Positions 2,770-45,033 of a stretch of DNA of 64,000 nt are shown here, one piece after another. Position 1 is the first letter of the stretch; the number at the start of each line of letters is the position of its first letter. The translations under genes and the position numbers were made by a program. This DNA comes from a virus, in IMG/VR virus record IMGVR_UViG_3300025154_000064, positions 1-64,000 of that record. One strand, written 5' to 3'. The notes beneath the pieces were generated by a model. The model was not told the DNA's origin. It searched no databases and saw only the letters and a program-made list of their open reading frames with translations.

Positions 2770-2825
2770 GTAGCTCATACGGTATGTATTTTTTAACTAA
2801 CTCATTATTTGAAAGGGGATTAAAA

Positions 2826-3629
2826 ATGAAAAAAAGAATCAGTGAAGTATTAGCAATTTACAACGCACGCATGCAGCGGGCACGTCTATCGGACAATGAG
2901 AACATAGAGGCATACATGGATGCCATGAGTGAGGCATGGGTTCAGGTAGTTGAAACAAACTGCGATGTGCTTGACGCAATCCGGGAAAAGTTTGGTCTGG
3001 AAGATGATAAGTCGGCTTTTAGCCGATTTGTAAAGAGAATCACGAATAGCAAGAAAAAGCAGGAAACACGGTTAGCAAAACATGAGTGCCTTTCGATTGA
3101 TAGCACTTTTAGGAATACTAAAGGTGAAAGCTACACTATCGAAGGTGCCGACTATCGGCAAGAAAGAAATACCCACCATAATGAAGTGATAGAACATATT
3201 GAATCACTCTTGAAAGAATCTGACAAGCCGATTTTTGAAATGTATCACATCAAAGAATTAACACGATCTCAAATAGCAGGTATCACAGGCAAAGATAGAG
3301 AAACGATAACACGACGGTTAGCAGTGATAGCCACAAAAATCAATGGTTCGGGATTGCGTGACATTCTTGATAGCAAGTTGAGTGAGAATATCGGCGAGAT
3401 TACCGGCGCCAAACACCATACCGAACAAACCTACGATATGGACCCAAGCGAGTGCAAACGGATTGACGTTGCGGACCACAAGTCGGCGACGTTCAATCCA
3501 CCGAACGATGTATCCTATGCAAGCAAGCTAAGCATTACAGTACCCACTAAAAAACGTGATGTTGACGGTGTCAGTGTTTTAGGCGCTATCAGGTGCGCTG
3601 ATAACGGGTATCGCCGTATGGTTGAGTAA
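2826..3629 (+). CDS. sigma-region-4-like HTH regulator, 267 aa
   Basis: The middle of the protein (roughly residues 120-175) reads as an HTH of the sigma-70 region 4 type: a helix containing KPIFEMYHIKELTRSQIAGI, then TGKDRETITRRL. The N-terminal part has long polar helices; the C-terminal 90 residues are not recognised. The start at 2826 follows GAAAGGGGATTAAAA; an in-frame ATG at 2784 lacks an SD. It stands alone between a strong promoter and a terminator. It is likely a phage transcription activator, perhaps of late genes, but a true sigma factor is not shown. Confidence 0.65.
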   Translation: MKKRISEVLAIYNARMQRARLSDNENIEAYMDAMSEAWVQVVETNCDVLDAIREKFGLEDDKSAFSRFVKRITNSKKKQETRLAKHECLSIDSTFRNTKGESYTIEGADYRQERNTHHNEVIEHIESLLKESDKPIFEMYHIKELTRSQIAGITGKDRETITRRLAVIATKINGSGLRDILDSKLSENIGEITGAKHHTEQTYDMDPSECKRIDVADHKSATFNPPNDVSYASKLSITVPTKKRDVDGVSVLGAIRCADNGYRRMVE

Positions 3630-3648
3630 CTATCACTAACCAACCATT

Positions 3649-3686
3649 AAAAGCCCCTATGCCGTATGGTGTAGGGGCTTTTTTTG
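3649..3686 (+). terminator. strong intrinsic terminator
   Basis: AAAAGCCCCTA (3649-3659) pairs with TAGGGGCTTTT (3672-3682), followed by further T. It lies 20 bp after the regulator stop codon. The A-tract on the other side makes it potentially bidirectional. Confidence 0.9.
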
Positions 3687-3717
3687 TTTGTGCTATCTGA
3701 TTTAAGAACGATAATTC

Positions 3718-3816
3718 GGGTAATTATTCCCCACCAATAAAGCAAGCGGGGAATAATTACCCACATGTTGCAGTGTTGCAACACAGTCGCAAAAATGCGA
3801 CTATCCTTTAAGGATA
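3718..3816. repeat. set of three inverted repeats
   Basis: GGGTAATTATTCCCC at 3718-3732 is exactly complementary to 3748-3762. AGTCGCA (3785-3791) pairs with 3796-3802 across AAAA. TATCCTT at 3802-3808 pairs with 3810-3816. They sit in a non-coding stretch (3687-4265) and look like protein-binding dyads or structured RNA. No gene is supported here. Confidence 0.6.
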
Positions 3817-3901
3817 TATGTCCAAAAAGGATACACCACTTGACTCTGCGCGTGCCTATCGCGTGCTATCGTATATGATAGTTTACTGAGAGTCAAACAG
3901 G

Positions 3902-4078
3902 CTAACCGACAAACTAACCGACAAGGAGGAAACAAACAAGCCGAACGAACGAACGAACGAACGAACGAGACAAGCCAAGCCGACACGATACCGGATTATA
4001 CGCTATAATCCGGTATCGGCGAGCGTTTGAACCAGCTATAAGCCTGCTATCAGCCTGCTATCAAGTATCCCCCCCCCT
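3902..4078. repeat. tandem repeats and 15-bp inverted repeat in a non-coding stretch
   Basis: CTAACCGACAA occurs twice near 3902-3924. Six perfect CGAA units fill 3942-3965. A 15-bp perfect inverted repeat covers 3986-4000 and 4004-4018 with a 3-nt loop. AGCCTGCTATC is repeated in tandem near 4041-4062, followed by a C homopolymer of about 8. This density of short repeats in about 180 bp is unlike the rest of the window. Confidence 0.7.
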
Positions 4079-4171
4079 CACTTTATCTTGACACCCACCC
4101 ACCCGCTTTATGGGGAACGGGTGGTAGCCGCATTTTTTTTTCAGGTTTTTCGGAATAAAGCTTTTTTTAAA

Positions 4172-4201
4172 ATTATTCGAAAAAAAAGATAAAATTATCT
4201 T
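4172..4201. promoter_or_regulatory. AAGATAA-N2-TTATCTT palindrome, copy 1
   Basis: AAGATAA at 4186-4192 and TTATCTT at 4195-4201 form a perfect dyad preceded by AAAATTATTC. The same arrangement recurs at 17749-17768. This copy precedes the first gene of the 4.2 kb rightward block. Confidence 0.6.
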
Positions 4202-4265
4202 GCGCTATCTATAAAAATGAATTATGTCGAACAAAAGTGTCTTTTTCTTATTCGGAGTGCCGGCC

Positions 4266-4439
4266 ATGGACTGGTTCAACCTTGAAACGTTCACCATAAT
4301 CGCCTCATTGATATCGGCCATAGGCGCCGTGACACTTCCGGTCCTGATCCGCCTTTACCCTGGCGCCAGATGGCTGAAGGCGATTTATGCCATAGGCCGG
4401 GTTATCCTGCCCATTTTAACGAGGAAGAAACCTAAATGA
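4266..4439 (+). CDS. small membrane protein, 57 aa
   Basis: The protein has a hydrophobic segment at about residues 8-27 (TIIASLISAIGAVTLPVLI), a second moderately hydrophobic stretch near 38-52, and a basic tail RKKPK. The start at 4266 is chosen because CGGAG lies 8 nt upstream; the in-frame ATG at 4224 has no SD. It overlaps the next gene by ATGA. A holin-like or membrane-anchoring role is possible, but neither is shown. Confidence 0.6.
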   Translation: MDWFNLETFTIIASLISAIGAVTLPVLIRLYPGARWLKAIYAIGRVILPILTRKKPK

Positions 4440-4750
4440 CTGGCCCGACATTCAAACTGGTTTTTGATGCTCCTGTCAAGGCAAAGCGTCCTCGTAAGAA
4501 CCGAAACTGTTCTGGGCTCGAGAAGGACCACATTATCGTTAGGGCCTTCAAGGTTTATTATCTATTCAGAGAATGTGGTTATGTGACTACGCGGGATTTA
4601 ATGAAACACACCGGGGTTAACATGGTCACTGCGCAGCAATATTTAACAGCGCTTTTAAAGGCCGGTTTTACACGTAAGCTCGCAGGCCGGCGCCGTGGGC
4701 GAGACCTTGAAAAATACGTTCTTGTGAGGAAGCCTATCGATGATCTGTGA
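4436..4750 (+). CDS. putative winged-helix DNA-binding protein, 104 aa
   Basis: A basic N-terminus (KAKRPRKNRN) is followed by an HTH-like arrangement: YVTTRDLMKHTGVNMVTAQQ, then LTALLKAGFTRKLAGRRRGRD. This resembles winged-helix repressors and phage regulators. Possible roles are small terminase or late regulator. Translation is coupled to the upstream gene through an ATGA overlap. Confidence 0.55.
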   Translation: MTGPTFKLVFDAPVKAKRPRKNRNCSGLEKDHIIVRAFKVYYLFRECGYVTTRDLMKHTGVNMVTAQQYLTALLKAGFTRKLAGRRRGRDLEKYVLVRKPIDDL

Positions 4751-5006
4751 AGAGAAAGAGATCGCCGGCACACTGTACCGGTACCATCCTGACGAAGATA
4801 GCCCGATGTTTACCGCGAGTTGGATAGTCACGCTGGACGGCGAGATCAAAGCGTTTATGTGCATCAAGCCGGACAGGGCTTTTGCATTTGCCTTTGGTAG
4901 CTGGGTAAATAGTTACCCGGGAAAGCTGAAGCTGACCACGGCGACAAAGTCGGTAAAGAAAGTCATGAAACAATTTGGGTTTGTGGAGATGGAAAGGTGC
5001 CGTTAA
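4740..5006 (+). CDS. paralogous small phage protein A, 88 aa
   Basis: The protein is clearly related to the 86-aa product at 6336-6596. Shared positions include the N-terminal GTL.RYHP, the central SWI..., the AW or SW aromatic pair, and the C-terminal FGFVE(M/L)E. The two copies are 1.3 kb apart in the same strand and operon, so this is a local duplication. No known domain is recognised. Confidence 0.65.
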   Translation: MICEEKEIAGTLYRYHPDEDSPMFTASWIVTLDGEIKAFMCIKPDRAFAFAFGSWVNSYPGKLKLTTATKSVKKVMKQFGFVEMERCR

Positions 5007-5560
5007 ACAGGCAATTTGTTGGTGAGTTCCAGATATCAAAGGGTAACGTGGAAAACGTTACTGTTAATCTATGGGACGCTGTAAGAAAGTGCAAGGGGTC
5101 GAGTTGTGTTCTTGCTGATAGATGTGCTTACGCTGATTCAAAAAAAGATCCTGTAGAGGTTGAGCATTTACCATGCAGGGTTGAGCGAAGATATCTTGTT
5201 CTTGCTCTTGAACCGTATATAGAATTGGTAAAAGTTGTTAATGATCAGAGTCTTATGAACTTCATCGGACTGCACCTGGTGCCGTTATATCTGGATCTGT
5301 GCCAGCTTAAGATGGAGAAGATGAAGATAAAGAGCATAACCTATATAGACAAGAAGGGCGAAAAGAAAATTGATCCGCTTTTTGATGAGGTACGGAAGAC
5401 GCATAGGGAGATAATGTCCCTGTGCAAAGCTTTTGGACTTAATGACTTAGCGAAAAAAGCCGGCTTCTTGAGACTGGGGGGCCGTGGTTCGGTCATTGAC
5501 CCAGAGCTTCAGATGGACGGTGATGGTGACGCTTACGAAGAGATGGCTAAGGGGGGATAA
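4997..5560 (+). CDS. Cys-motif protein, possible small terminase, 187 aa
   Basis: A GTG start at 4997 overlaps the previous gene and has GGAGATGGAAAG upstream. The N-terminal half carries four Cys (CKGSSCVLADRC plus a later C near LPCRVERRY) that could bind metal. The C-terminal half is helical, and REIMSLCKAFGLNDLAKKAG resembles the C-terminal helix of phage small terminases. That role is inference only; the gene lies 7.7 kb from the large terminase. Confidence 0.5.
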   Translation: MPLNRQFVGEFQISKGNVENVTVNLWDAVRKCKGSSCVLADRCAYADSKKDPVEVEHLPCRVERRYLVLALEPYIELVKVVNDQSLMNFIGLHLVPLYLDLCQLKMEKMKIKSITYIDKKGEKKIDPLFDEVRKTHREIMSLCKAFGLNDLAKKAGFLRLGGRGSVIDPELQMDGDGDAYEEMAKGG

Positions 5561-5997
5561 TGGCTACTTGGTTGAATGGGAATGCTGGTGTGTATCGGGT
5601 AGAGAATTTGGATGGTAACGTGGTTGACGTGCTGCCCGGGGGCACGGTTGAGTCGACGAGCGATTTGTCTGGGGATGGTTTCACGAATTCTGATAGCGGT
5701 GTTGTTTATTCCGGCAGTGCTGTGAATGTATCCGGTTTGGCTGCTGACTGGGTTTTCCCAAGGGTTGGAAATTATTTTGATAGCCTGCAGTTTAACCCTG
5801 GCGCAATATCTGACAGATTGATTGTGCGGGATGGTTCTGCAACGGGTGATATTATTTTTGACTCGAAGGCATCGCTTGATGGTACGCCAATGGCAAGAGC
5901 CTTTGGCGGACAATTTTTTAAACCCTATATTAAACTTTCTGAGTGTGTCCTTTCTGCTGGTTACCTGGTAATTTTTATTATCGATAGGAGTAAATAA
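5560..5997 (+). CDS. putative structural protein, 145 aa
   Basis: A beta-rich protein with WLNGNAGVYRVENLDGN at the N-terminus and RLIVRDGSATGDIIFDSKA in the middle. It has no signal peptide. It overlaps the previous stop by one base (TAATG). Composition and position suggest a capsid or tail decoration subunit. Function unknown. Confidence 0.55.
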   Translation: MATWLNGNAGVYRVENLDGNVVDVLPGGTVESTSDLSGDGFTNSDSGVVYSGSAVNVSGLAADWVFPRVGNYFDSLQFNPGAISDRLIVRDGSATGDIIFDSKASLDGTPMARAFGGQFFKPYIKLSECVLSAGYLVIFIIDRSK

Positions 5998-6000
5998 TAA

Positions 6001-6210
6001 TTGCGAGAGTGCAAAGGCCCCGAGAATTGTGAACGATGCCCGATACCAGGGGCCTATTGTAAGGTAACAATACAGGCAAACAGATATGTCGAGGAGAGGC
6101 GTTGCAGCTACGAGTGGGCCCTGGAGCAAGTAAAGAGACGGTGCGCGGAGGATCAGTGGGAGAAAACACAGACACTGCGCGGTTCATTGAAGAGTCGAGA
6201 AAGCGGTTGA
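6001..6210 (+). CDS. Cys-rich small protein, TTG start, 69 aa
   Basis: The protein begins MRECKGPENCERCPIPGAYC with six Cys in the first 35 residues, a likely zinc or iron-sulfur site. TTG at 6001 follows GGAG with 10 nt spacing. The Cys cluster is reminiscent of CKGSSC...C in the 4997 product, but the folds need not be the same. The downstream part is helical and charged. Confidence 0.55.
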   Translation: MRECKGPENCERCPIPGAYCKVTIQANRYVEERRCSYEWALEQVKRRCAEDQWEKTQTLRGSLKSRESG

Positions 6211-6317
6211 ACCAGGCGATGGAGCGGATAAAAGAGATCAACCGGGCCCATGAAGAAGCTGGAAAGTCAAAATTAAAGTTTCGACGTGGCGCTAACTGCC
6301 TTGCGAGAGGGAATTAA
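6156..6317 (+). CDS. small coiled protein, GTG start, 53 aa
   Basis: GTG at 6156 has GGAGG only 5 nt upstream and lies inside the 3' end of the previous gene, in another frame. The product is highly charged and helical (RFIEESRKRLNQAMERIKEI) with a basic tail. The SD supports translation, but function is unknown. Confidence 0.45.
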   Translation: MGENTDTARFIEESRKRLNQAMERIKEINRAHEEAGKSKLKFRRGANCLARGN

Positions 6318-6335
6318 AAATGAGGATGCCCTTCG

Positions 6336-6596
6336 ATGATAGTTGAGGAGAAAATCACTGGAACTCTTTGCAGGTATCATCCCGGTTCTAAAGATCCAAA
6401 ATATACAGTATCGTGGATTCTGACGGATGATAATGAGATCAAGGGATTCATGATGTCAGAAATTGCGAGAGGCTTTGGTGTTGAGTTTGCCGCTTGGGTT
6501 CAGCAACAAAGGAAGCCCCTGCGAGTCATGACGGCAGTAAGAAGCGTTGCAACAATGGCAAAAAGATTCGGGTTTGTTGAATTGGAGAAGAAATGA
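6336..6596 (+). CDS. paralogous small phage protein B, 86 aa
   Basis: Paralogue of the product at 4740-5006, with the same length class and the shared GTL.RYHP start, SWIL, FAAWV and C-terminal RFGFVELE. Divergence between the copies is substantial, so the duplication is not recent. It overlaps the next gene by ATGA. Confidence 0.65.
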   Translation: MIVEEKITGTLCRYHPGSKDPKYTVSWILTDDNEIKGFMMSEIARGFGVEFAAWVQQQRKPLRVMTAVRSVATMAKRFGFVELEKK

Positions 6597-6922
6597 AAAA
6601 ATTAATTATGGCTTGTTTGATGCTGGCCTTGGCTGTTTCGGTTGAGGCTTCACCGTGGCTGGTGTGTGATCCGCAAGAAGGCATCACCGGATATTCGGTT
6701 AGCATGGACGGCGGCGAGTGGATGGATCGGCCCTATGAACTCTACGATGCTACTTGCGCGAAGGTCATGGATCTTGATGGATTAGCAGTGGGCCAGCATT
6801 CGGTTAAAGTCAAAGCCTACGCCATTGATCCTGTTTGGGGGAGACAAGAATCAGAAGCTGCCCCTTTCGATTTCGCAAGACCGGGAGTTCAGCAAATTAT
6901 AAATATGGGGTTAAAGAAATAA
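6593..6922 (+). CDS. secreted small protein with signal peptide, 109 aa
   Basis: The N-terminus MKKLIMACLMLALAVSVEA is a classical signal peptide with a probable cleavage after the VEA. The mature 90 residues are beta-rich (GITGYSVSMDGGEW, GQHSVKVKAYAIDP) and look like a small immunoglobulin-like or fibronectin-like domain. A phage-encoded exported protein next to receptor-binding genes might alter the host surface. Function is inferred only. Confidence 0.6.
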   Translation: MKKLIMACLMLALAVSVEASPWLVCDPQEGITGYSVSMDGGEWMDRPYELYDATCAKVMDLDGLAVGQHSVKVKAYAIDPVWGRQESEAAPFDFARPGVQQIINMGLKK

Positions 6923-6940
6923 TTCAGTGGAGCAAATAAT

Positions 6941-8305
6941 ATGGTCGAAATGGGGTTGGATTTAGGGCTTGGCCTTGGTGGAGGTGGTGGAGTTTTCTCT
7001 GCTGAATATGGCGTCGCATGGAACCAGACAACGGATGCTTACACTCGGCTTGGGTACGCCCCGTTTGTTGCAACGGCATTGGGTGTCAAGCCCACTGATT
7101 ATCTATTCCCGTTTTCCACGCGCCGATGTGTGGTCTCGGATGCTGGAGTGGTCCAATACTACTTATCTCCAACGGATAGCACGAAAAAAGCTGATGGCAG
7201 TTCTGCGGGTTTGACTGGCACAGACGGTCAAGTTATGGTGGAGATATCTGCCAAATATATTAAATATTCTTGGGTAGATCCGGTTCACTCCTGGTGGATA
7301 TCAAACGTTGCTTTACCTGGATATACGCTCCACCCTGCGTTTTCTTCGGCATCTGGTAAAGTCTATGTCGGAGCATATGAGGGCTATATCACAGGCGGGA
7401 AGCTCACCTCGATATCCGGTGTGCTGCCAACCGTGAGCCAAACCAGGGCGCAGTTCAGGGCAGCGGCGGCGGCACGGGGCGCGGGATGGCATCAGCAATC
7501 TTTCTGGATCGCGGATCTGCTGCAACGACTATATGTCATTGAATATGCCGATCTTGATTCTCAGGCCATGTTAGGTAGGGGGATTGATCAATATTCGATT
7601 TGGCCTGGAACGCCGCAAGCTCTGACAGGCAATACAAATGCAATCGGTAACGCATCGGGTAGCAACTCGGCAGCTGTACTGGTTTGGGCCGCTGCAACCG
7701 CAAAAACCAGCGGCCAGCTTGTAACACCGACAGTGGCAAACAATTATACGTACCGCTGCACCACTGGAGGCACCACGGGGGGCAGCCAGCCGACATGGCC
7801 CACCACGATCGGCGCTACTGTTGCAGATGGCAGCGTGGTATGGACCTGTGTACGGATAGGGCAATATGTGAGCTATCGGGGCGTGGAAAATCTATTCGGC
7901 CATATCTGGAGATTCGTTGATGGTATCAATATCCACAATTCAGCAGCTAACCGTTCACGCGCCTACGTTTGTGCTGATCCAGCCAGTTTTGCGGACGATA
8001 CTGAAACAAATTATTCGCTGGCCGGCATTCTGGCAGAGATGGATGGATATGCGCGGAATCTGGCGGCAACAGCTCTTGGTTTGTTTCTGCCAGGTGGCAC
8101 ATCTGGCGGCAGCTCTGCCACAGGGCTCGCGGACTATTATTACACCTATTTCGATAATGGCAATGACAGCGGGTGGCGGGTCTGTCGGCTTGGCGGGTAT
8201 GCGTCTAACGGTCTCGGTGCGGGCGCGTTCGTTTGGGATTCGTATAGCGGCTCTTCGGCTGCGAGTTCGGATATCGGCGGGCGGCTCTGCTTTACAAAAA
8301 CGTAA
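6941..8305 (+). CDS. tail/fibre protein with C-type-lectin fold, DGR-target-like, 454 aa
   Basis: The C-terminus (from about residue 315, YVSYRGVENLFGHIWRFVDG, to GWRVCRLGGYASNG...GGRLCF) has the hallmarks of the C-type-lectin/formylglycine-enzyme fold found in phage receptor-binding proteins and in variable proteins of diversity-generating retroelements. A separate module at roughly 255-310 (SGQLVTPTVANNYTYRC ... GSQPTWPTTIGATVADGS) matches a repeat module common in phage tail proteins and looks inserted. The N-terminus is glycine-rich. It likely sits on the virion and binds a receptor. No reverse transcriptase or template repeat is visible in the window. Confidence 0.7.
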   Translation: MVEMGLDLGLGLGGGGGVFSAEYGVAWNQTTDAYTRLGYAPFVATALGVKPTDYLFPFSTRRCVVSDAGVVQYYLSPTDSTKKADGSSAGLTGTDGQVMVEISAKYIKYSWVDPVHSWWISNVALPGYTLHPAFSSASGKVYVGAYEGYITGGKLTSISGVLPTVSQTRAQFRAAAAARGAGWHQQSFWIADLLQRLYVIEYADLDSQAMLGRGIDQYSIWPGTPQALTGNTNAIGNASGSNSAAVLVWAAATAKTSGQLVTPTVANNYTYRCTTGGTTGGSQPTWPTTIGATVADGSVVWTCVRIGQYVSYRGVENLFGHIWRFVDGINIHNSAANRSRAYVCADPASFADDTETNYSLAGILAEMDGYARNLAATALGLFLPGGTSGGSSATGLADYYYTYFDNGNDSGWRVCRLGGYASNGLGAGAFVWDSYSGSSAASSDIGGRLCFTKT

Positions 8306-8387
8306 TGCGCAACACGCGCGCTAACAAAAGCGGTTCAGAGAACAGGTGAAAATAGACCGTTATTATACATTGGCATAAGGAGTAATG

Positions 8388-8795
8388 ATGATTGAGGAAA
8401 GTCTTGAAAAATTGCCAGCGACACAGCCTTCGCGCAGCTGTACGATCATCCGCTATAATTACGAACAGATCGAGAGAGACGGTGTGCAGTTGTGGCAAAC
8501 AAACTCGGTATTCTTGTTCTCTGACACAGATATTAAAAAAGTTCCTATCGGCATTGTTGGAGAAATTAACCTGTCAAATCAATCGCTATCGGAGGCGGAA
8601 ATTGACGCCATATTGAGATATTTTTACAGTTACCGGGACCAGTTCCGCACCCCCTATCCGATGATCAATATCGGCGGGAGTAACGCTTCGCCGTCTGGGG
8701 ATTACCGGGAAGCCATCCAGCCGACAACCGGCAAGGAGCTGGCGTATTCATTGGTCAATCAGCACGGATGGACAATTATTTTTACGGAGGGATAG
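8388..8795 (+). CDS. hypothetical protein, 135 aa
   Basis: The start at 8388 is the second of two adjacent ATG codons and is better spaced from GGAG (about 6 nt). No known domain recognised. The central segment (IGIVGEINLSNQSLSEAEID) and the C-terminal PTTGKELAYSLVNQHGWTI are unremarkable. It lies directly after the lectin-fold protein and could be its chaperone or partner. Confidence 0.5.
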   Translation: MIEESLEKLPATQPSRSCTIIRYNYEQIERDGVQLWQTNSVFLFSDTDIKKVPIGIVGEINLSNQSLSEAEIDAILRYFYSYRDQFRTPYPMINIGGSNASPSGDYREAIQPTTGKELAYSLVNQHGWTIIFTEG

Positions 8796-8797
8796 AG

Positions 8798-9013
8798 ATG
8801 CCAAAACAGATACAAATTATAGGCGGAGAACTGAGAGAGCTGGATGTTGACGAAAAAAGCGTTGTTGCTATCCCTCCTGGGACAGAGATCATTTTCGAAG
8901 ACACACTGGCGTCATTTGCTAAGACCGCCGGGGGAACCTCTAAAAAGTTAGTAGACGATCTGGTTGTCGAAAAAGAATTGTCTGACAAGAGATCAGCATC
9001 AAAAGGGAAATAA
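8798..9013 (+). CDS. small hypothetical protein, 71 aa
   Basis: ATG at 8798 is preceded by GGAGGGATAGAG. The protein is acidic at first (ELRELDVDEKS) and lysine-rich at the end. No domain recognised. It follows the previous stop by 2 bp, so it belongs to the same operon. Confidence 0.5.
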   Translation: MPKQIQIIGGELRELDVDEKSVVAIPPGTEIIFEDTLASFAKTAGGTSKKLVDDLVVEKELSDKRSASKGK

Positions 9014-9177
9014 AGCTCACAAGCCCGAAGGATAAAAGTTGGCGGTTGGTGCATGATGGTAAAACAGTCCTGATGCTGTTCGAGTCAGATGGCGAAACCC
9101 AAACAGCCTACGAGCTATTCTGTGGGACGCTTGAGGAGTGCCAGAAGGAGATTGATAGGCTTGGTCTTAAAAAATAG
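9010..9177 (+). CDS. small phage protein with unclear start, about 55 aa
   Basis: The frame ending at the TAG 9175-9177 encodes KSWRLVHDGKTVLMLFES and ELFCGTLEECQKEIDRLGL, a coherent small globular protein. No ATG, GTG or TTG exists upstream of codon 9046 in the open frame (which begins after a stop at 8983). Conserved-looking sequence already begins near 9010, where the codon is ATA. Either a non-canonical start or internal TTG/GTG at 9046/9049 is used. Confidence 0.5.
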   Translation: MKLTSPKDKSWRLVHDGKTVLMLFESDGETQTAYELFCGTLEECQKEIDRLGLKK

Positions 9178-9267
9178 TTTCAGCGGCTCTATCATGGGTT
9201 GCCGCTGATCGGCGCCCGGACGTTTTTGAAATAGGAAGCTTAGACGGTTGTATAAAGGAGTGAAGAA

Positions 9268-9369
9268 ATGACACCAGAAGAAAAGATACTGATTCAAAAC
9301 GAGCTTTCCAGGTTTCCCGGCGCTGGAAACGATGTAATTGGACTACTTAAGAGCGTGGAAGGCCGATGA
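9268..9369 (+). CDS. micro-protein, 33 aa
   Basis: ATG at 9268 has AAAGGAGTGAAGAA directly upstream, an excellent SD. The product begins MTPEEKILIQNELSRF. Its TGA overlaps the ATG of the next large gene (ATGA at 9366). That coupling and the strong SD argue for a real gene, possibly mainly a translational coupler. Confidence 0.55.
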   Translation: MTPEEKILIQNELSRFPGAGNDVIGLLKSVEGR

Positions 9370-12368
9370 TACGAGCCCCATTTAAATTCCACTGCGCTTG
9401 GTCATGGCATAGTAGGCCCTCCGCAGTTAGATATGTCGGCACAAAAGACCAAACCTACTGGACCGCCATTAGTACAAACGGCTATCTATATCTGTTTTCG
9501 TACAACCACGCCACCGGAGAGGAGCAGTATAAAGCGCTTGGGAATCCAGGCGCAGATGATCACAATAACGGCTCTATCCATATATGCTCCGATGGGAAAA
9601 TACTGGTTGCGTGGGCCGGGCACAACAGCGCGTCAATATTCTACAGAAAAACAGCAAACGCGGAGGATATCACATCCCTTGGAACAGCGTATTCCGTCTC
9701 GACAAAAGGCACTTACTCCTATGCTCAACTCGTCAATCTGTCGAGTGAGGGAATGCTTTTACTTTTTACCCGTAGACCTTGGATATCTTCAGATGGTGGC
9801 AGTGGAAGCGGCGTAACCACCACAGAACGGGTATGGGATATTTTGATATCAACGGATGACGGCGGGTCTTTCGCTCATCATTCGGTTCCGCTGTGGTTTG
9901 ATGAGGACGGGTCAGTGGCATCGCCCTATACAGAGGTATGGGGCAACGGCGTGGATGAGATATATTTTGCCCGATCTAACGCGTTAACAGCATTCGTGGA
10001 CCGGAAAGATATCCTTTTTGCAAAATACGTTTCAGGGGCGGAAGGAACTGCGGGGTCTTTTTACAAGGCGGATGATACAAAAATATGTGACTGGGCGGAT
10101 CTTCCAATTATGGCGAGTGCGGATCTTGAGCTTGTTTGGGATTCGTCTGCCGAGGGTGATGAGAAGACGTATGCAAAGGATATCATTGTTGATGCCACAA
10201 CAGGCGATATCGCTATAGCTTTTACGACCATGAGCTCCGGTGAAGTAAACACATACCGCTATGCCAGATGGACAGGAGCAGCATGGAATAAAAACGCAAT
10301 CGTTGAGGCTGGATACGACTTCTGCGAAGTGACAGCACAACCCTCATACGAGGGGGGCATTGTTATAAACCCAGCGGATATCGATGAGGTCGTAATCAGC
10401 CGGGAAACCTCCACTGGCTCAGGGCATTGGGAGATAGAACGGTATGCGACGGCAAACGATGGCGACACCTGGACAAAAACAGAGGATATCACTTCAGCTG
10501 ATACTTTATTGCCGGATAAGGTTGTCAGGCCCCTCATACCGATAAACTTCTCGTCGGAACTGCCCGTATTGTGGATGGGCGGGGGATACGCAGATTTTGA
10601 CGATTACGAAACGTTTATATATACCGTAATTCCGACCAAGGCACCGGAGAATTTCAACAGGGACGCAAATTGCGTTGCATATTATGCATTTGAGTCAGGT
10701 GTTTTAACAAAAGATTCAGTTGGTTTTAACACTCTAACTGATAACGGCACCGTAAATGAAAGCACGGGAGCTGGAGATTTTAAAGAGGGTTCATGCTCAG
10801 CTTCATGCGTGGCTGCTCAAACAGAATATTTTTCTATTGCAGATGCTTCCCTTGATCCAGGGTTTCCGCTCAAGAACGGCGATGTGACAAAGCTTTTCAG
10901 TTTTTGTGGATGGGTGCGATTTACGTCACACGCGAACTATCGGACGGTTCTTGGTAAGTGGGGGGCGGTAGCTGGTACAAGGTCTCTGCTACTTAGGACT
11001 GATAGCGCTGGAACTCTTACGCTTTACACTGGTTATAGTAGCGGAGCGTCCACCCAATCGGTGCCGTTCGGTACCAATCTCGCAACGGGCGTATGGTATC
11101 ATATTGGGCTCACACTAAATGCGAATACTAACGCTTATCATTTACGCATATGGGATACTTCAGCAAATGACGGTGCCGGCGGGATTTTAGGAACTGATTT
11201 AGACGACGCATTTGCAAACGCAATCAATATAGAGGGCGCACCATTACAAATCGGTGCTCAGGACGGAACAAATACATTTAACGGCCTGTTTGACCAATTT
11301 GTTTTTTTTAATGATATCCTCACAACCGAGGATATAGACGCAATACGTGCCGATACGTATTTCCTGGGGGAGGGCGGGGAGACTGAATTCTGGAAAAGCC
11401 TTTCTGATTGGGCGGCTGGGATCGACTCAATCCCGGCGTTAACCAACTCTCTTTCAACGGGCGACACCGGCGCAGGCGAAGAAGCATTTTCAGGCGCGAA
11501 CGACTTTACGCTTTTGGAATCAGGCAGTGGCGTTGATTCAGCTGGCGCAACCATTGCGCTGACGGTCAGTGAGCAGGGTGTTGGCGCAGACGCGATCGCC
11601 CAGCTTATCTCTTCGATAGGTGTCCTGGATCAGGCGCTTGGCTCAGACGCCATCCCTATCTTGCTAAGTGCGCTATCTGTTCTTGAAAGTGGCATAGGCA
11701 CCGATGCTATTAGCACGCTAAAATACATCTTAAAGCAAGTCGCAGACAGTGCTATCGGAACTGATACGGTGTCAAGCGTGACGGCGGCGCTTGCGGTCTT
11801 AGATCAGGCAACTGGCGAAGATGCGATCGCAAGACTACTAAACGCTGTCGCTGTTCTGGACAGTGCGACAGGCTCAGATTTAATCGACGTCATATCAGAA
11901 AGTATTAAGTTGATTCAAGATAGTGGCACCGGGACCGATGCTTTGACAAGCTTGGCGGCAATGATAGCCATTGCAGAGCAGGCAAACGGCGCGGAAATCC
12001 TGTCAAGCTTGGCGGCGTTGACCGTTTTGGATCAAGCTACCGGCGCGGATGTTATAAGTGCGCTCAAGACCTATCTGGCTCAGGTGCACGACGGCGCCAC
12101 CGGCACTGACAGCACACCCTTGACGATCTCGGTATCAGTCCCAGTGTCCGACATAGGGGCAGGAGCAGAGCTGATAGCGCAAGTTATGGTGTCACTGTCT
12201 ATGTCTGATTTCTGTGATGCCAACGACGTCGCATTGAAGTTTATTCAGCTTCCGGATGGAGCATATTTGATAAAGTTCACCGTCAAGGCGAACACGACCC
12301 GCTTTGATGCAAAGGCTAAGTCTTGCCGCTTTGATGCAAAGGCGAAACCTTTTCGTTTTGACACTTAA
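9366..12368 (+). CDS. large surface protein: sialidase-like fold, LamG domain, tandem repeats, 1000 aa
   Basis: Residues about 1-430 are beta-rich with recurring SSDGG, STDDGGSF and ANDGDTW motifs typical of BNR/sialidase-type propellers. Residues about 440-650 form a LamG/concanavalin-A-like domain (VAYYAFESG, SFCGWVRF, WYHIGLTLNA, LFDQFVFFND). Residues about 700-940 hold some ten degenerate repeats of about 19-20 aa around VLDQATGxDAI. The C-terminus has RFDAKAK repeats (about 977-998). It probably forms a fibre, spike or decoration that binds host glycans. I did not identify a catalytic set, so enzymatic sialidase activity is not claimed. Confidence 0.65.
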   Translation: MIRAPFKFHCAWSWHSRPSAVRYVGTKDQTYWTAISTNGYLYLFSYNHATGEEQYKALGNPGADDHNNGSIHICSDGKILVAWAGHNSASIFYRKTANAEDITSLGTAYSVSTKGTYSYAQLVNLSSEGMLLLFTRRPWISSDGGSGSGVTTTERVWDILISTDDGGSFAHHSVPLWFDEDGSVASPYTEVWGNGVDEIYFARSNALTAFVDRKDILFAKYVSGAEGTAGSFYKADDTKICDWADLPIMASADLELVWDSSAEGDEKTYAKDIIVDATTGDIAIAFTTMSSGEVNTYRYARWTGAAWNKNAIVEAGYDFCEVTAQPSYEGGIVINPADIDEVVISRETSTGSGHWEIERYATANDGDTWTKTEDITSADTLLPDKVVRPLIPINFSSELPVLWMGGGYADFDDYETFIYTVIPTKAPENFNRDANCVAYYAFESGVLTKDSVGFNTLTDNGTVNESTGAGDFKEGSCSASCVAAQTEYFSIADASLDPGFPLKNGDVTKLFSFCGWVRFTSHANYRTVLGKWGAVAGTRSLLLRTDSAGTLTLYTGYSSGASTQSVPFGTNLATGVWYHIGLTLNANTNAYHLRIWDTSANDGAGGILGTDLDDAFANAINIEGAPLQIGAQDGTNTFNGLFDQFVFFNDILTTEDIDAIRADTYFLGEGGETEFWKSLSDWAAGIDSIPALTNSLSTGDTGAGEEAFSGANDFTLLESGSGVDSAGATIALTVSEQGVGADAIAQLISSIGVLDQALGSDAIPILLSALSVLESGIGTDAISTLKYILKQVADSAIGTDTVSSVTAALAVLDQATGEDAIARLLNAVAVLDSATGSDLIDVISESIKLIQDSGTGTDALTSLAAMIAIAEQANGAEILSSLAALTVLDQATGADVISALKTYLAQVHDGATGTDSTPLTISVSVPVSDIGAGAELIAQVMVSLSMSDFCDANDVALKFIQLPDGAYLIKFTVKANTTRFDAKAKSCRFDAKAKPFRFDT

Positions 12369-12392
12369 CAAGTAAAACTTACTGGAGGAAAA

Positions 12393-12875
12393 ATGCTTAA
12401 AGAAATTGGGAAACACATTACCAAGTGGACGATCACCAAGTTTGAAGACGAGGCGCACTTCGCGCAGGGCGACAGCTATGAAACGAGAGTGATCGAAGGA
12501 AACATTCTTCTTAACGAAGGCATCACTCTTATGCTGAACCTCTTGGCAGGCCTTGGTGGCACGGCCTACAACAACGCAAACGCTTATCTTGGGGTTGGTG
12601 AGAGTACAACGGCGGCAGCCGCATCGCAGACTGGTTTGTCTGGTGCGACCAAGACCTATAAGCCGATGGAAGCGACTTACCCGCAAGTGTCGGGGCAGAC
12701 GATAACCTTCCGCTCTGTCTTTGGTTCTACGGATGCAAATAACGTCTGGCAGGAATTTACGGTGGTCAACGCTTCCAGCGACACCGGCACGAATCTCAAC
12801 CGAAAAGTTGACAACCAGGGCACGAAAGTAGCTGGGCAGGTCTGGACACTCGACCTTGACATCACGTTCGCATAA
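12393..12875 (+). CDS. conserved phage structural protein, 160 aa
   Basis: GGAGG lies 4-5 nt before the ATG. The sequence has a pattern seen in phage minor structural proteins: NILLNEGITLMLNLLAG, then NNANAYLGVGEST, then LNRKVDNQGTKVAGQVWTL. Related proteins usually lie beside tail fibre genes. The exact role is unknown. Confidence 0.6.
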   Translation: MLKEIGKHITKWTITKFEDEAHFAQGDSYETRVIEGNILLNEGITLMLNLLAGLGGTAYNNANAYLGVGESTTAAAASQTGLSGATKTYKPMEATYPQVSGQTITFRSVFGSTDANNVWQEFTVVNASSDTGTNLNRKVDNQGTKVAGQVWTLDLDITFA

Positions 12876-12887
12876 TGAGGGGTGATT

Positions 12888-13235
12888 ATGGACTTCGATG
12901 GATCGGAAAAAATTGAAATCAGGGAAGGGTCTGACAACTGGGGACCATTTGTTTTCGGCTTATCGGGGTCCATTCCCTCTGGTGATACGATTGCCAGTGT
13001 AATAGTCAAGGCCTATGCCGGAACCTACAAGCCTGCCCAGGCGGTTGGAGATCAGACTGAAATTCCATTGATTGACGATGGGTTTGAGCCTGACATCGTA
13101 GACGACACAGACATTTCGATACGGCTCAAATATCCCGGCGACGACTATAAGGGGAAAACGACAATCGTGTTTGATGTCACACTCGAAGGCACAGGTAAAT
13201 ACCAGTTCTTTTGCCATCGTGTGAAAGTGGTTTAA
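12888..13235 (+). CDS. putative minor structural protein, 115 aa
   Basis: ATG at 12888 follows GAGGGGTGATT; an upstream in-frame GTG lies within that SD and is rejected. The protein is acidic and beta-rich (IEIREGSDNWGPFVF, ISIRLKYPGDDY, TTIVFDVTLEGTGKY), like small immunoglobulin-like or head-fibre subunits. It lies directly upstream of the terminase. Confidence 0.5.
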   Translation: MDFDGSEKIEIREGSDNWGPFVFGLSGSIPSGDTIASVIVKAYAGTYKPAQAVGDQTEIPLIDDGFEPDIVDDTDISIRLKYPGDDYKGKTTIVFDVTLEGTGKYQFFCHRVKVV

Positions 13236-13237
13236 TA

Positions 13238-15175
13238 ATGCAAAAAATCAACTGGTCGAAATACCGCGGCGACGGTAACAAGTGCATCGAGTTTGCAGAG
13301 GATAATGTGTGGGTGTCGGTTTACCCGCCAGGCAAAGAGATGTCGGCGCTTGTCCCTATAGGCGCGGCCAAGTGGTCGAAGGATGTAATGTGTCTGGGTA
13401 CCGGTATGTCCTATTACGATATATGGACAAGGCCGCATCCGGGCACTGGCCGGTCTTACCAGACAATGTGGGAAGAGCAGAAGAAGATCCTTCGAGAGGC
13501 GTTGGCCCTTGGCGACGATGGATTGTTCATGTACTGCCTGATTGTTTTTTGTTGGCCGCGTGGGGACGGGAAATCGTTCAATGCGGTTCTGATTCAGCTT
13601 TGGAAGTTTTGTTGCTGGCCGAGTCAGGACATAAGGTTTTGCGCGAACAGTAAGGACCAGACAGGCCATGCTCATTATACCGAACTTAAAAAAATGATCC
13701 TCAACTCGCCGAACATTCTTGCCTATGTTGGAAGGAAAAACGTGCAAGAGCACGGGACACGGTTAAAGAATAAGCGTGGCGTTGTTGTCAGTAAGATGGA
13801 GGTTATTTCAACGGCGTCAGGCCTTTTCTCAAACATTACCGGGTATGCGTTCTCGGAATTTTTTGAAATGAAGAACGAGGACTTCTTTGCAAAACTTGAC
13901 ATGAGCATGAGAAACACGCCGAACGCCTTTGGTATTATAGACACAACGGTTAGCTCTAAGGCACATGTTCTGCACAGGCTTTACAGATCGTTTATCGAGA
14001 AGACCGATAGCAAGCTTTATTTTTCATACCGAAGCAGCGCAACAGGACACTATACTGACTATATCCATCCGAAGAACTCTGCCGCGCAGCTGGCATCATA
14101 CAAGGTAAAGCATGCGCTGAACTTTGGCCGGTTTTTTTTGAATTTATGGTCTTCCGGATCGGAGCGGATCTTTTCAGAGGACCAGGTGGACGCCATCAAT
14201 TTTATTGGCGCAGACGCTCAAGTGCTGAACCATTACCGGGTTATCGAGCTTATTCAGGAAACCAATAAGATTATCGATTCAGATAGAGAACTGGTAGAGG
14301 GCGGGTTGGAAAACGTCTATTCCCGTGATAAACAGCTTGGTGATATTGACGAGCACCTTTGGCCTGTAGAAGATGTCTATTCTTTCACAGGTACAAATAC
14401 CGGAAATGGCATGATGACAACCAGAATGGCGATGGACATCCTGGGTGAAATGTATGATACTGAGTGGTCGGTTCTGGTTGGCGTTGACCGTGCACAACCA
14501 ATGAAGTTGAGGACGAACGCCAAAACGATCATGACAACAGTTATCAAGGGCCTACCGGGGAGCCGGAGCAACCCGAGTGTTGGTGTCATCAATAAGAGAG
14601 TCGATCCGGGGGTTAACCGCGCCAGGCCAGAGGCCTATATTGATGGACCAAAGTATATCTATTTTTTGGTCCATATCGCAAATATATCAGACAACTCGAT
14701 GTCAGCAATTAAGGCAGAGCTGATGATCGTAGATGAAGAGTTTGATGGTATAGATACAATCGGTTCTGAGAAATGGGGGATGTTTGATCTTGAGGAATGG
14801 ACCTCAGAAATAATGCCGGCAACAAAGGTGAACCTTTACCAGCCGACATATGATAAGCAGATTGGAATGTTCACAGCGCTTCATGAGCTGATCGTTGATG
14901 GACGGTGGAAGGCGCCCAGGACTGGCATATCTGGGTCCAAGGGTGGTGACATTGTCATAGAGGAACTTGGGATGCTTGACCACGACCAGGAAAAGCGGTG
15001 GTTTGGTAGCCCAGAAAAAGACGCCAAGTATGGTGTCCAGGACGATTTTTGCTATTCTGCAGGATGGGGCCTGTATGGTGGCAAGTCCCTGACAGTTGAA
15101 AATTTCAGGCCGAGGCTCGGAAAGCAGTTTTGGGGCACTATGTTGTTGCCGGGAAACCTAATAGGGGAATATTGA
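13238..15175 (+). CDS. terL: terminase large subunit, 645 aa
   Basis: The packaging motor ATPase/nuclease. A Walker A-type motif WPRGDGKS lies at residues 106-113. The C-terminal RNase H-like nuclease is indicated by VGVDRAQ (Asp about 417) and by DDFCYSAGWG near 602-611. Length is normal for TerL. The start at 13238 is 3 bp after the preceding stop and has only a weak purine-rich SD. It acts at the portal and is followed at once by a small gene and the portal. Confidence 0.85.
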   Translation: MQKINWSKYRGDGNKCIEFAEDNVWVSVYPPGKEMSALVPIGAAKWSKDVMCLGTGMSYYDIWTRPHPGTGRSYQTMWEEQKKILREALALGDDGLFMYCLIVFCWPRGDGKSFNAVLIQLWKFCCWPSQDIRFCANSKDQTGHAHYTELKKMILNSPNILAYVGRKNVQEHGTRLKNKRGVVVSKMEVISTASGLFSNITGYAFSEFFEMKNEDFFAKLDMSMRNTPNAFGIIDTTVSSKAHVLHRLYRSFIEKTDSKLYFSYRSSATGHYTDYIHPKNSAAQLASYKVKHALNFGRFFLNLWSSGSERIFSEDQVDAINFIGADAQVLNHYRVIELIQETNKIIDSDRELVEGGLENVYSRDKQLGDIDEHLWPVEDVYSFTGTNTGNGMMTTRMAMDILGEMYDTEWSVLVGVDRAQPMKLRTNAKTIMTTVIKGLPGSRSNPSVGVINKRVDPGVNRARPEAYIDGPKYIYFLVHIANISDNSMSAIKAELMIVDEEFDGIDTIGSEKWGMFDLEEWTSEIMPATKVNLYQPTYDKQIGMFTALHELIVDGRWKAPRTGISGSKGGDIVIEELGMLDHDQEKRWFGSPEKDAKYGVQDDFCYSAGWGLYGGKSLTVENFRPRLGKQFWGTMLLPGNLIGEY

Positions 15176-26394: not shown

Positions 26395-29300
26395 TAAAGT
26401 ACAAGAACTCGGCACTCGCTTTACCGGAGATATTAAAGACATATCTGAGAAGGTTAGACAGCTCATGGCGCTGCTCAACCAGCTCGATACGTACAGCCGG
26501 ACTTCTTCGAGCATCCTTGGCCAGGTTACCCAAAAAGCTATCGCACTTAACGGTGCGATAGCGAAAACGCCTGTTGCCAAAAACTTCGCGCAGAACAAGG
26601 TGATGCTTTCTGAGTTCCAGCTTGCCTTGGGCGGTGCCACAAACGAGTCCAAGAAGTTTCAGGCTGCGCTTACCACCCTCGGAGAAGGCAAAACCGGAAT
26701 TGCGCTGAAAACCATTAAGTCGCAGTTAGAGCAAGTCGAAAGGGCTATTGTTAAAACGGCCCAAAAAATGAAAATGCTCGGCCAGGATGGTGAGAAGTTC
26801 TTTAACGAAACAGACCGCATAAAGGCTTTCAACGACGCTCTGGCCGGCAAAACCCGGGCAACTGCGACAACCACCCGAACACCAGTCGAACCGAAGGCAC
26901 CTTCAGGCTTTCTTGACCAGATCAAAAATGCCGCAAGGGTGACACTTGCTTATGGTCTTGTTGGCTCTGCTATTGGCTCGGTAGCTATGGCTGCCAAGGC
27001 TGGTGTCGGGAATATCGTTGAGTTTGACCAGGCGCTACATAACCTTCAAGCCATTACCGAAGCGACCAACGACGAGACATCGGTGATGGGTAACCGAATC
27101 AAGCAGATCGCATCTGATACCAAATATACAGCACAACAGGTTTCAGATGGAATGACACTTCTTGGCCAGGCCGGCCTTGACGCCGCTCAGGCGACCGCTG
27201 TCATCGGCCCGGCCGCTACGTTGGCGACCGGTACCCTCAGCAAAATGGAAGAGACTGTTGATCTCCTGAGCACCACGTTGGTGGCTTTCAAGATGGATGC
27301 GGCAGAGGCTGGCCGGGTGACTGACGTCATGGCCGCAGCAGTTAATAAGTCGAAGCTTACGATTGAACAGCTCCGGACGGTTTTCAACTATGTTGGTTCT
27401 TCGGCGCACATGATTGGAATGTCTATTGAAGAACTGGCTGCATCCACGATGGTTCTTGCAAATACCGGTCTGAGAGCGTCAACAATCGGTACCGGATTGC
27501 GGCAGGTTCTTGCGAAGCTTCTATCCCCAAGTGAAAAATTAAGAGAATCGTTTGAGGCCCATAGCATATCTCTTGATGCTGTGAATCCAAAGGTCGTTGG
27601 TTTCCAACAAGCCATGAAGAACATGATCCCTATCCTGTGGGATGTAAAGAAAAATACTGTCGATATGTCTAAGGCCTATGAGCTGTTTGAGCTTCGTGGT
27701 GCCCAGGCAGCGGCCGTCCTTGTGGAATCGTTTGCCGGCGGACGATTTAAGCAGGCGTTTGAAGATACTTTAGAGATCGGATCAGCAGCAGAGATGGCAG
27801 CTAAGCAGTCTGAAGGACTTGGCGTCATGTGGGACAACCTTGTTGCGAAGGCTGGCGTGCTGGCTATCGCTTTGGGGGATCTTGGTGTTGTCGGTGCGAT
27901 GAAAGGCGTTATAAGTGTAGCAGGCCTGCTTACAGATGTTATGACAGATATGGCGAGTGTGACCGCCGATGCTTTTGACTCGCTCTTTAATTCTACTGAA
28001 AGGCAAAAGAGGCTTGCAGGAGAGCAGGTAGTAGAAAACAAGGCCGTTGTTGGGTCTCTCAAAGTTTATATCGAAGCGCTGAAGGTAACACAGAAAGAGG
28101 TCGGGACAAACAATCAGGTTTCGACTGCTCATTTGTCTATTCTGAAGAGGCTTAAGGCTGATCATCCAGAGCTGGCCGACAAGATTGATTTAACAAAGGT
28201 TTCATTTAACAGTCTTGGAACTGTCATCGCGTCAGTAAACAGGCTGATGGATGAGCACAACCAAAAGACAATGGAAGGCCGGCTCAAGAAAATATCTCTC
28301 GCAGAGTCTGCGAGAGCAGAGCTTGATAATTTAAAGGCTGAGGCAGAAAAGACGAAGGCAACTATTGCAGCGTTAAAACCTGTTTCATCTGCAAAAGGCC
28401 AGGGCCAAAACGAAATAAATAAGTCGCGAGAGATGGACATAAAATATCTTGAAGCGCACCTAAAAGATATAGAAGACAAGATAAAGCTGTCAACAAAATC
28501 AATTGATGAAACCGTTTCAGAGTGGTCTGCGGAAATAGCAAACGCACTTAAAGGGTCAGAATCGCCATCAATGGATATAGTCGATACCATGATAGGCAAC
28601 ATGATTCGACTCGGTAAAGTTTCAGAGGAAACTGGAAAAAAGATTCGTGAAAATGTCACAGCGAAACTCAAAGCTGTGGCGGTTGACCTCGACACCAGCA
28701 AGTTCACCACCAGAATAAAAACCATGGGGAAAGACTTCGACGCCGTCTTTAAAACGCTTGACCCGAGCAAGAAGCTCGATTTCGTCGAAAAGTTTGGTGC
28801 TCTGGAAAAGAAAATAGCCAATATCAGAAAAACTTATGCGAACACGGACATCCCGGGAGAGGACGTAGAAGCTGACATAGCCGCCAAGAAGAAAGCTTTT
28901 CTTGAAGAATACCTCAAGAAAGAAGCCGATTCCAGTCAAAAGGTGGTGGACAACGCCAGCCAGGAAGCGCAGAAGCGAATCCAGATCCAGGAATACTATT
29001 ATGCAACGGTCGCAAGGCTAACATCAGATGAGCATGAAAAGCTTGAGCAAGAGCGTTTGAAGGAAAGCGAGTCGATCAAGAAGCAGTACGAAGAGGCCAT
29101 CGCCATGGCCAATAAGACCGGTGAAGACAAAGCCGCTATCAAGGCAAAATATGATAACCTTCAAGATCAAAATACCAAATTCTATACGCAGAAAGGTTAC
29201 GACCTTGATCAGAAAAAATCGCTTGAATTGTTGGATATTGAGATCATCAAGAGGAAGCAACTCGCGGAACAGAAAAAACGTGACACCTTAGACGACTCTG

Positions 29301-43433: not shown

Positions 43434-43847
43434 CTATTCACGCGGGTTTGCGCCGTCACCATCTGCCACCACCTCATAGTTGTAATCTTTGCAGGCATAT
43501 CGGTTCGCCACAACCTCCTCACGGGTAAAGAGATCTCTCACCCATTCACTATCAAACCGAAACCCGCTAACCGGATTCACATCACCGACCTGCGCTTCCT
43601 CCCATTCTTTCGTTAATGGATGCTCAGGGGTGTTGTGTTGTGCCGGGTACCAATCATTCCGTTTGCATATGCGCTTGACTTTATCTCCAAAATAGATTTC
43701 ATTCCCGAACATATCGACTTCGCCAGTCCACATTTTCGGTTCTGAGCAGAACTCTTCGGAGAATTTATAAAACATGTCTGAGATATCGCGGGGTGTTTGA
43801 GCGTAAAAATCTTTCCAGTCCTTCTTCATTTGCGCTTTAAATTTCAT
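43434..43847 (-). CDS. hypothetical protein downstream of integrase, 137 aa
   Basis: It overlaps the integrase stop by ATGA, so it is translated with it. VDMFGNEIYFGDKVKRICKRN resembles small beta-barrel (KOW/YopX-type) phage proteins. Placed between int and attP, an accessory recombination role such as excision is conceivable but unsupported by motif. Confidence 0.55.
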   Translation of the reverse strand: MKFKAQMKKDWKDFYAQTPRDISDMFYKFSEEFCSEPKMWTGEVDMFGNEIYFGDKVKRICKRNDWYPAQHNTPEHPLTKEWEEAQVGDVNPVSGFRFDSEWVRDLFTREEVVANRYACKDYNYEVVADGDGANPRE

Positions 43848-44953: not shown

Positions 44954-45033
44954 GCAGACACCCCCAGTTGTTGTTAAACCACTGGGAAGGTTACTGTATA
45001 TGGTGGACTTGGTCAACATTTATTGAATTTCAA

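Follow-up and report, generated by a model that had tools for sequence, protein, structure and literature searches.

The gap at 3687-4265 of this phage genome is crowded with repeats, and the question that it raises is what the gap does and whether the repeats are the part that matters. The window analyzed here (64,000 nucleotides) is the first 64 kb of a source record of 88,974 bp, the ends of which overlap by ~126 bases, the pattern left by circular assembly; in assembly terms, the phage genome is a circle of ~88.8 kb. Judged from the sequences, the interval, where the late operon begins, is moderately likely to combine control of that operon with the start of packaging.

Genomic setting of the interval

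Genes on the minus strand extend from 62.4 kb round the junction to ~2.4 kb and are followed by a sigma-factor-like gene on the plus strand. The late operon, also on the plus strand, runs from ~4.27 kb to 42 kb and includes the terminase and structural genes. The interval is located between the sigma-like gene and the head of this operon, within the following setting.

2784-3629, plus strand: sigma-factor-like gene, 281 aa (phrog_1740 RNA polymerase sigma factor, E=1.4e-6; Pfam Sigma70_r4_2 only at E=0.075)
3649-3682, plus strand: rho-independent terminator of the sigma-like gene (15-pair stem, 4-nt loop, T tail; single-strand fold z=-5.5)
4266-4439, plus strand: 57-aa ORF, first gene of the late operon (ORF list/annotation)
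4436-4750, plus strand: HTH regulator-like gene of the late operon (annotated by sequence similarity)
4740-5006, plus strand: small late-operon gene with no assigned function (ORF list)
4997-5560, plus strand: small-terminase (TerS) candidate, 187 aa (family present in 130 loci, usually just upstream of TerL)
13211-15175, plus strand: large terminase, TerL (phrog_9, E=2.5e-11; phrog_2, E=1.5e-7)

Apart from small unsupported ORFs, the interval is non-coding, as the original prediction held. The first late ORF may start at the ATG at 4266 or at 4224, and the last 42 bases of the interval precede 4266. Terminator-like hairpins also occur behind the corresponding genes of two related loci (L098, 6332-6364; L105, 1037-1077). 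Neither the terminator at 3649-3682 nor the conserved element described below was part of the original prediction. The sigma-like protein, used as a query, retrieved no relatives from IMG/VR; a weak counterpart of its gene occupies the same place in the related record G002 (E=1.6e-4), and by similarity the gene was detected in 1 of 8 relatives. Upstream of it, a 62-nt sequence that includes TTACACTMTATAGGGACG is present in two copies, 74% identical (2537-2598 and 2627-2688), which are possibly paired promoters or operators. The word TATAGGGAC from these copies has just one further occurrence in the genome.

No relative of the phage was found in INPHARED, either by DNA or by the TerL or portal protein, and the GTDB genomes contained a few prophage fragments that were weakly informative. 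The genome encodes two tyrosine recombinases, both on the minus strand (window 43844-45019 and L009:943-1788; Phage_integrase E=2e-16 and 3e-16), and a 481-aa protein (L010:5424-6869, minus strand) that combines a ParB-nuclease-like N-terminus with a DUF5131/radical-SAM-like C-terminus.

Repeats and hairpins within the interval

The repeats that had drawn attention to the gap are real. Both 15-bp inverted repeats, beginning at 3718/3748 and 3986/4004, are perfect, and the tandem CGAA and two further tandem repeats are all present at 3902-4063. The interval contains the following features, none of them assigned to a strand.

3718-3732/3748-3762: perfect 15-bp inverted repeat with a 15-nt loop (fold z=-5.3)
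3766-3832: three small abutting hairpins (3766-3783, 3785-3802, 3803-3832; fold z=-7.7)
3840-3896: three-way dyad with closing arms TTGACTCT/AGAGTCAA (fold z=-3.3)
3902-3924: tandem CTAACCGACAAA, 1.9 copies (repeat search)
3942-3968: tandem CGAA, 6.8 copies (repeat search)
3986-4018: 33-bp palindrome (15-bp arms 3986-4000/4004-4018, 3-nt loop; fold z=-5.1)
4035-4063: tandem GCTATCAGCCT, 2.6 copies (repeat search)
4133-4200: stretch of A/T tracts from the conserved element (see below) to the late operon (from the sequence)

According to the folding z-scores, the left half of the interval, if single-stranded, is a series of hairpins. Their abundance was compared with 300 dinucleotide-preserving shuffles of 3687-4265, none of which contained arms of 15 bp (longest, 11), reached the three observed inverted repeats with arms of at least 9 bp (shuffle mean 0.08) or reached the observed 131 bases of tandem repeat (mean 0.4). 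Among nine other candidate gaps of the genome none had a tandem repeat at the same search setting, while hairpins of 13-18 bp were present in three. Outside such gaps, two 27-bp tandem repeats were observed at 12299-12351, at the 3' end of a 1000-aa ORF, where the peptide FDAKAK is repeated. A protelomerase-type telomere was rejected, since the 33-bp palindrome is unconserved and is centered on an odd number of bases (3 nt), and the genome assembles as a circle.

Turnover of the repeats among related phages

Relatives were gathered by a TerL search (5 viral loci) and a portal search (80 viral loci). The closest loci belong to two records, G002 (12.2 kb; L012/L105) and G001 (92.5 kb; L013/L098), the portal proteins of which are 66-68% identical to that of the window. 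In the window, G001 and G002 alike, TerS is preceded, in order, by a gene that is sigma-like in its features or its position, a hairpin terminator, a tandem array and inverted repeats. The arrays occupy the same place and are unrelated in sequence, being CGAA in the window, TCTGC (19 copies) in L098 and a 13-bp TGCCTGGCCTGAT unit (9 copies) in L012/L105. A TTAT-RSNCT-ATAA hairpin that by eye resembles the window palindrome occurs in both L098 and L105, slightly left of their elements.

In 60 loci, tandem repeats covered 8.7% of the sequence up to 2.5 kb upstream of TerS and 0.4% of that downstream (coverage was greater upstream in 50 loci and smaller in 2; p=2e-10). As the downstream control consists largely of coding sequence, the contrast indicates a repeat-rich gap and not by itself a function. 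Each locus carries its own, unrelated repeats upstream of TerS. Repeats and hairpins thus recur at this place with unrelated sequences, which indicates that the repeats drift, and the hairpins and tandem repeats left of the element are, on this comparison, a fast-drifting flank. Related TGTCTCAAATTA...GAGACA repeats are located at L098:4380-4620 and L105:1470-1665; they precede the sigma-like gene in one of these relatives and follow it in the other, which indicates that an array of operators has changed gaps.

A conserved bipartite element

The three closest gaps were aligned, and a profile was then built from six loci and iterated. The result is an element of two boxes, 53 bp to the right of the 33-bp palindrome.

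4072-4140, plus strand: bipartite element of ~69 bp, the proposed packaging-initiation site (nhmmer E=3.1e-7; covariance-model E=5.0e-11)
4072-4091, plus strand: box A, CCCCCCTCACTTTATCTTGA (element alignment)
4118-4141, plus strand: box B, CGGGTGGTAGCCGCATTTTTTTTT (element alignment)

In the window, the pattern reads CCCCCCTC-N4-TATCTTGA, ~25 variable bases and GGGNCC...CCACAAAATTTTT; the consensus, drawn by eye, is CCCCCCTCGATCTATCTTGA, ~25 variable bases, and GGGNCC or GAGNCTC followed by CCACAAAATTTTT. The length is nearly constant (65-70 nt), and the sequence of the spacer is unconserved. In a subgroup of five loci (L059, L150, L163, L173 and L181), a YACGTCAAG-type hairpin stands in place of box A. 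The match of the covariance model in the window, which is one of its 28 training sequences, is the sole one in the 88,974-bp record.

With the iterated profile, the element was detected in 45 of 99 non-redundant TerS loci, including loci whose TerS is only ~21-45% identical to that of the window. Its position was then assessed in five half-and-half splits, in which the training positions came from the full-set model and the test loci lay outside the training half. Each split yielded 17-25 matches per 50 withheld loci. Every match lay upstream of TerS on the plus strand, with none at any other place (binomial p 5e-15 to 1e-22), and reversed sequences yielded no matches. A sequence-only covariance model, applied to the whole of 20 related virus records, matched 19 of them, and in each of these the best match preceded TerS on the strand that encodes it; nine of the matched records were absent from the training alignment (G004, G007-G010, G012, G013, G016 and G018). 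Only two records, G006 and G012, contained a further, weaker, near-full-length match. The one in G006 (28252-28335, minus strand; E=6e-4) is on the opposite strand and far from the terminase genes.

The association was also approached from the DNA side, by two pattern scans over 2.9 million IMG/VR contigs. The scans returned 8 distinct contigs, and in all 8 a TerS of this family is encoded downstream of the pattern, on the strand that carries it, including one in which TerS was outside the locus first fetched and was found 3.2 kb downstream. Comparison of the interval between close relatives, the check that had been suggested for the repeats, therefore has a divided outcome: the repeats drift, whereas the element among them is conserved.

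The core of the element, GGGNCC/GAGNCTC, has two-fold symmetry and is accompanied by an A-tract, and the aligned copies have no consensus RNA fold. Together with the near-fixed spacing of the boxes and the unconserved spacer, these properties give the element the marks of a DNA site, putatively one for protein binding. A structured leader RNA was considered and set aside, since the Rfam gathering search of the window returned no RNA family and the element showed no consensus fold.

The terminase genes

The assignment of the 187-aa product of 4997-5560 as TerS is likely, on the basis of its position and of matches to its predicted structure. TerL starts less than 150 bp downstream of TerS in 48 of the 83 loci that have both genes, and 150-5000 bp downstream in 33. 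The window has a much larger gap of 7.65 kb (5560-13211) occupied by tail- or moron-like genes; the gap is below 5 kb in 81 of the 83 loci. Alignments of the family show four invariant Cys residues. The TerS candidate had no significant match to known TerS proteins in Pfam, PHROGs or the PDB, and hhalign gave no match to HK97 TerS. Its AlphaFold model (pLDDT 83) was compared with the predicted viral proteins of BFVD. Of the 20 best matches, ~12 carry the name terminase small subunit, and several belong to the P27 family, at weak E-values (best, 0.004 for an uncharacterized protein; best named terminase small subunit, 0.02). The assignment would thus add a small terminase that sequence-family searches miss.

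The TerL protein matches both the PHROG that holds HK97 TerL (cos) and the PHROG that holds P22 TerL (pac), and for this reason does not settle the type of packaging. Alignment of TerL by hhalign with the single lambda, HK97 and P22 sequences produced nothing informative.

The element as a probable packaging-initiation site

A cos or pac site was among the functions first proposed for the gap, and a packaging site is the best supported of them, by virtue of the conserved element and not of the repeats that had been listed, which are unshared even with the closest relatives. The position of the element, its single copy per genome, its fixed orientation to the terminase genes and its co-occurrence with them (in 19 of 20 records, in the held-out loci and in all 8 contigs of the DNA-first scans) are what packaging-initiation sites show. 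As part of the reading favored for the interval, the element at 4072-4140 is probably the site at which packaging starts.

In the proposed mechanism, TerS would most likely recognize the element or its two boxes and would bring TerL to cut the replicated concatemer there. Loading of the DNA would then proceed from the element in the direction of the late genes, probably by the headful (pac) mechanism, and in many relatives a late promoter would lie between the element and the first gene.

A pac site is preferred to a cos site. Unique genome ends at the element, as expected of cos, were not observed: none of the 16 near-complete records ends inside it (these being ends of assemblies, not of virions), and in ~10 of the 16 the ends overlap by 30-127 bp at places unrelated to the element, which favors pac. 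Such circular assemblies fit headful permutation, although intracellular DNA that is circular or concatemeric yields such assemblies as well. Of the contig ends up to 3 kb upstream of TerS, 48 in number, 28 are within 1 kb and ~4 are in the element or within ~35 nt of it, roughly as expected. The start of one short contig, L122, is a single nucleotide ahead of box A, no more than chance would give. The contig termini thus show no excess at the element and give no indication of a fixed end there.

Possible regulation of the late operon

In the main alternative, the element serves transcription and has no part in packaging: it might be an insulator, or it might be bound by an activator of the phage, such as the sigma-like protein or a regulator of late genes. 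This is rather unlikely but has points in its favor. The element is strictly at the operon head, even where several genes precede TerS; the intervening genes span 0.9 kb in the window and ~3-6 kb in L016, L058, L100, L101 and G021, so that the element is tied more closely to the operon head than to terS. A single copy would also suit one long late operon, and the sigma-like gene is directly upstream in the window, with its weak counterpart in G002.

The promoters themselves argue the other way. Sigma70-like promoters (TTGACA-N16-18-TAnnnT) occur between the element and the gene in many loci, at p<=0.05 in 14 of 38 loci where ~2 are expected. Their distance from the element ranges from 13 to 455 bp, unlike that of a classical activator site, which places the element outside the transcript and without the fixed spacing of an activator. 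In the window, a weak promoter-like TTAAAA-N17-TAAAAT is located at 4167-4195 and is not above chance (p=0.76). Moreover, the conserved boxes contain no -10/-35 pair, the lack of a consensus RNA fold is against an antiterminator leader, and the sigma-like gene, detected in 1 of 8 relatives, is not co-conserved with the element at that sensitivity of search.

Replication and partition as possible roles, and drift

As a replication origin, another function first proposed for the gap, the interval would contain iterons (the repeats), initiation structures (the hairpins) and, in the element, a conserved part of the origin. The array of hairpins, the A/T-rich stretch, the divergent transcription and a cumulative GC-skew minimum near 2.0 kb are in keeping with this, as are iteron-like TTTATCCAAC arrays in L035 and L062. 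Third-position GC skew is ~zero in all gene blocks, which means that the skew minimum follows gene direction only. DnaA-box-like sites are few in the genome and absent from the interval, the primase-polymerase and helicase genes are at 54-58.6 kb, ~35-50 kb away, and relatives have entirely different repeats, whereas the element goes with TerS. An origin here thus lacks specific support and is improbable. The TTTATCCAAC arrays of L035 and L062, dense, upstream of TerS and similar in sequence to a DnaA box, could be iterons in those two loci.

A partition centromere had also been suggested, and a parS-like site would consist of the 33-bp palindrome or the repeats, bound by a ParB-like protein. 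A candidate gene for such a protein is encoded ~4 kb away on the circular map.

Record 87757-88686 (L010:7757-8686), minus strand: ParB-like protein gene (ParB_N, E=6e-9)

An ortholog is present in G001 near that phage's own repeats, and 5 of the 7 GATACCGG octamers are in the first 4.3 kb. The sequence of the palindrome is unconserved, however, no ParA gene was identified among the subset of genes searched, and ParB was found in 1 of 8 relatives tested, against a nearly universal element, which leaves the suggestion unsupported and a centromere highly improbable. The G001 ortholog adjoins repeated TGTCTCAA/GAGACA sequences, and a role of the ParB-like gene and such repeats in phage-plasmid partition or in regulation is possible. 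The words GATACCGG and GCTATC were also considered as operators or iterons; they are locally enriched and form no clear pattern.

Finally, the repeats may be nothing but a hypervariable gap, prone to slippage or recombination and functionless in themselves, which fits the upstream excess of tandem repeats with unrelated units at each locus and is true at most of the repeats, but as an account of the interval it has very little probability because it leaves the conserved element in the same gap unexplained.

Comparison with known packaging sites

The records of the cos phages lambda and HK97 begin at cos, and their terS genes start at base 191 and base 50, respectively. The candidate site in the window's family is similarly located just upstream of the terS-terL cassette, and the TerL of the family matches the PHROG of the HK97 enzyme. 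It differs in that no fixed contig ends occur at the element, most near-complete relatives being circles broken at unrelated places. The pac site of P22 lies within terS (gene 3), unlike the intergenic site described here; the likeness to P22 is in the TerL match and in the circular assemblies, which fit headful permutation.

The nearest experimental parallel is the pac site of the Bacillus phages SPP1 and SF6. In SPP1, pac is located at the terS promoters and the start of terS and includes several sets of direct repeats, and in SPP1 and SF6 bent DNA is important in its recognition (PMC4737164, PMC6316719). In contrast to SPP1, the candidate site of the present family is not inside terS and in many relatives precedes the late promoter, its bipartite sequence is conserved, the TerS has a Cys4 N-terminus, and genes may separate the site from terS.

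An exact literature search for the box A consensus together with terminase and cohesive ends gave no match. We tentatively propose, as a distinct possibility, that packaging-initiation sites of this kind form a new class, in which a bipartite element present in single copy would be recognized by a Cys4-containing small terminase. On this proposal, the element would comprise a C-rich box with ATCT, a near-fixed spacer of ~25 bp and a GGGNCC/GAGNCTC core with an A-tract. The class would extend over a large uncultured family of phages of ~80-93 kb, for which INPHARED yielded no relative and in which the flanking repeats are replaced from lineage to lineage.

Significance

Packaging sites are known for few phages, usually only because their virion ends were mapped. 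In the present case, a conserved candidate, shared by dozens of uncultured phages of distant lineages, emerged from comparative genomics alone. The locus is also an example of a conserved signal within a gap whose surroundings all turn over. Most likely, the signal for the start of packaging in an uncultured phage family lies in this gap, and the eye-catching repeats are its drifting surroundings. If so, the element would provide a sequence signature for the start, orientation and probable mode of packaging in a family that has no isolate in INPHARED, and would serve as a marker with which the genomes of these phages could be oriented and closed.
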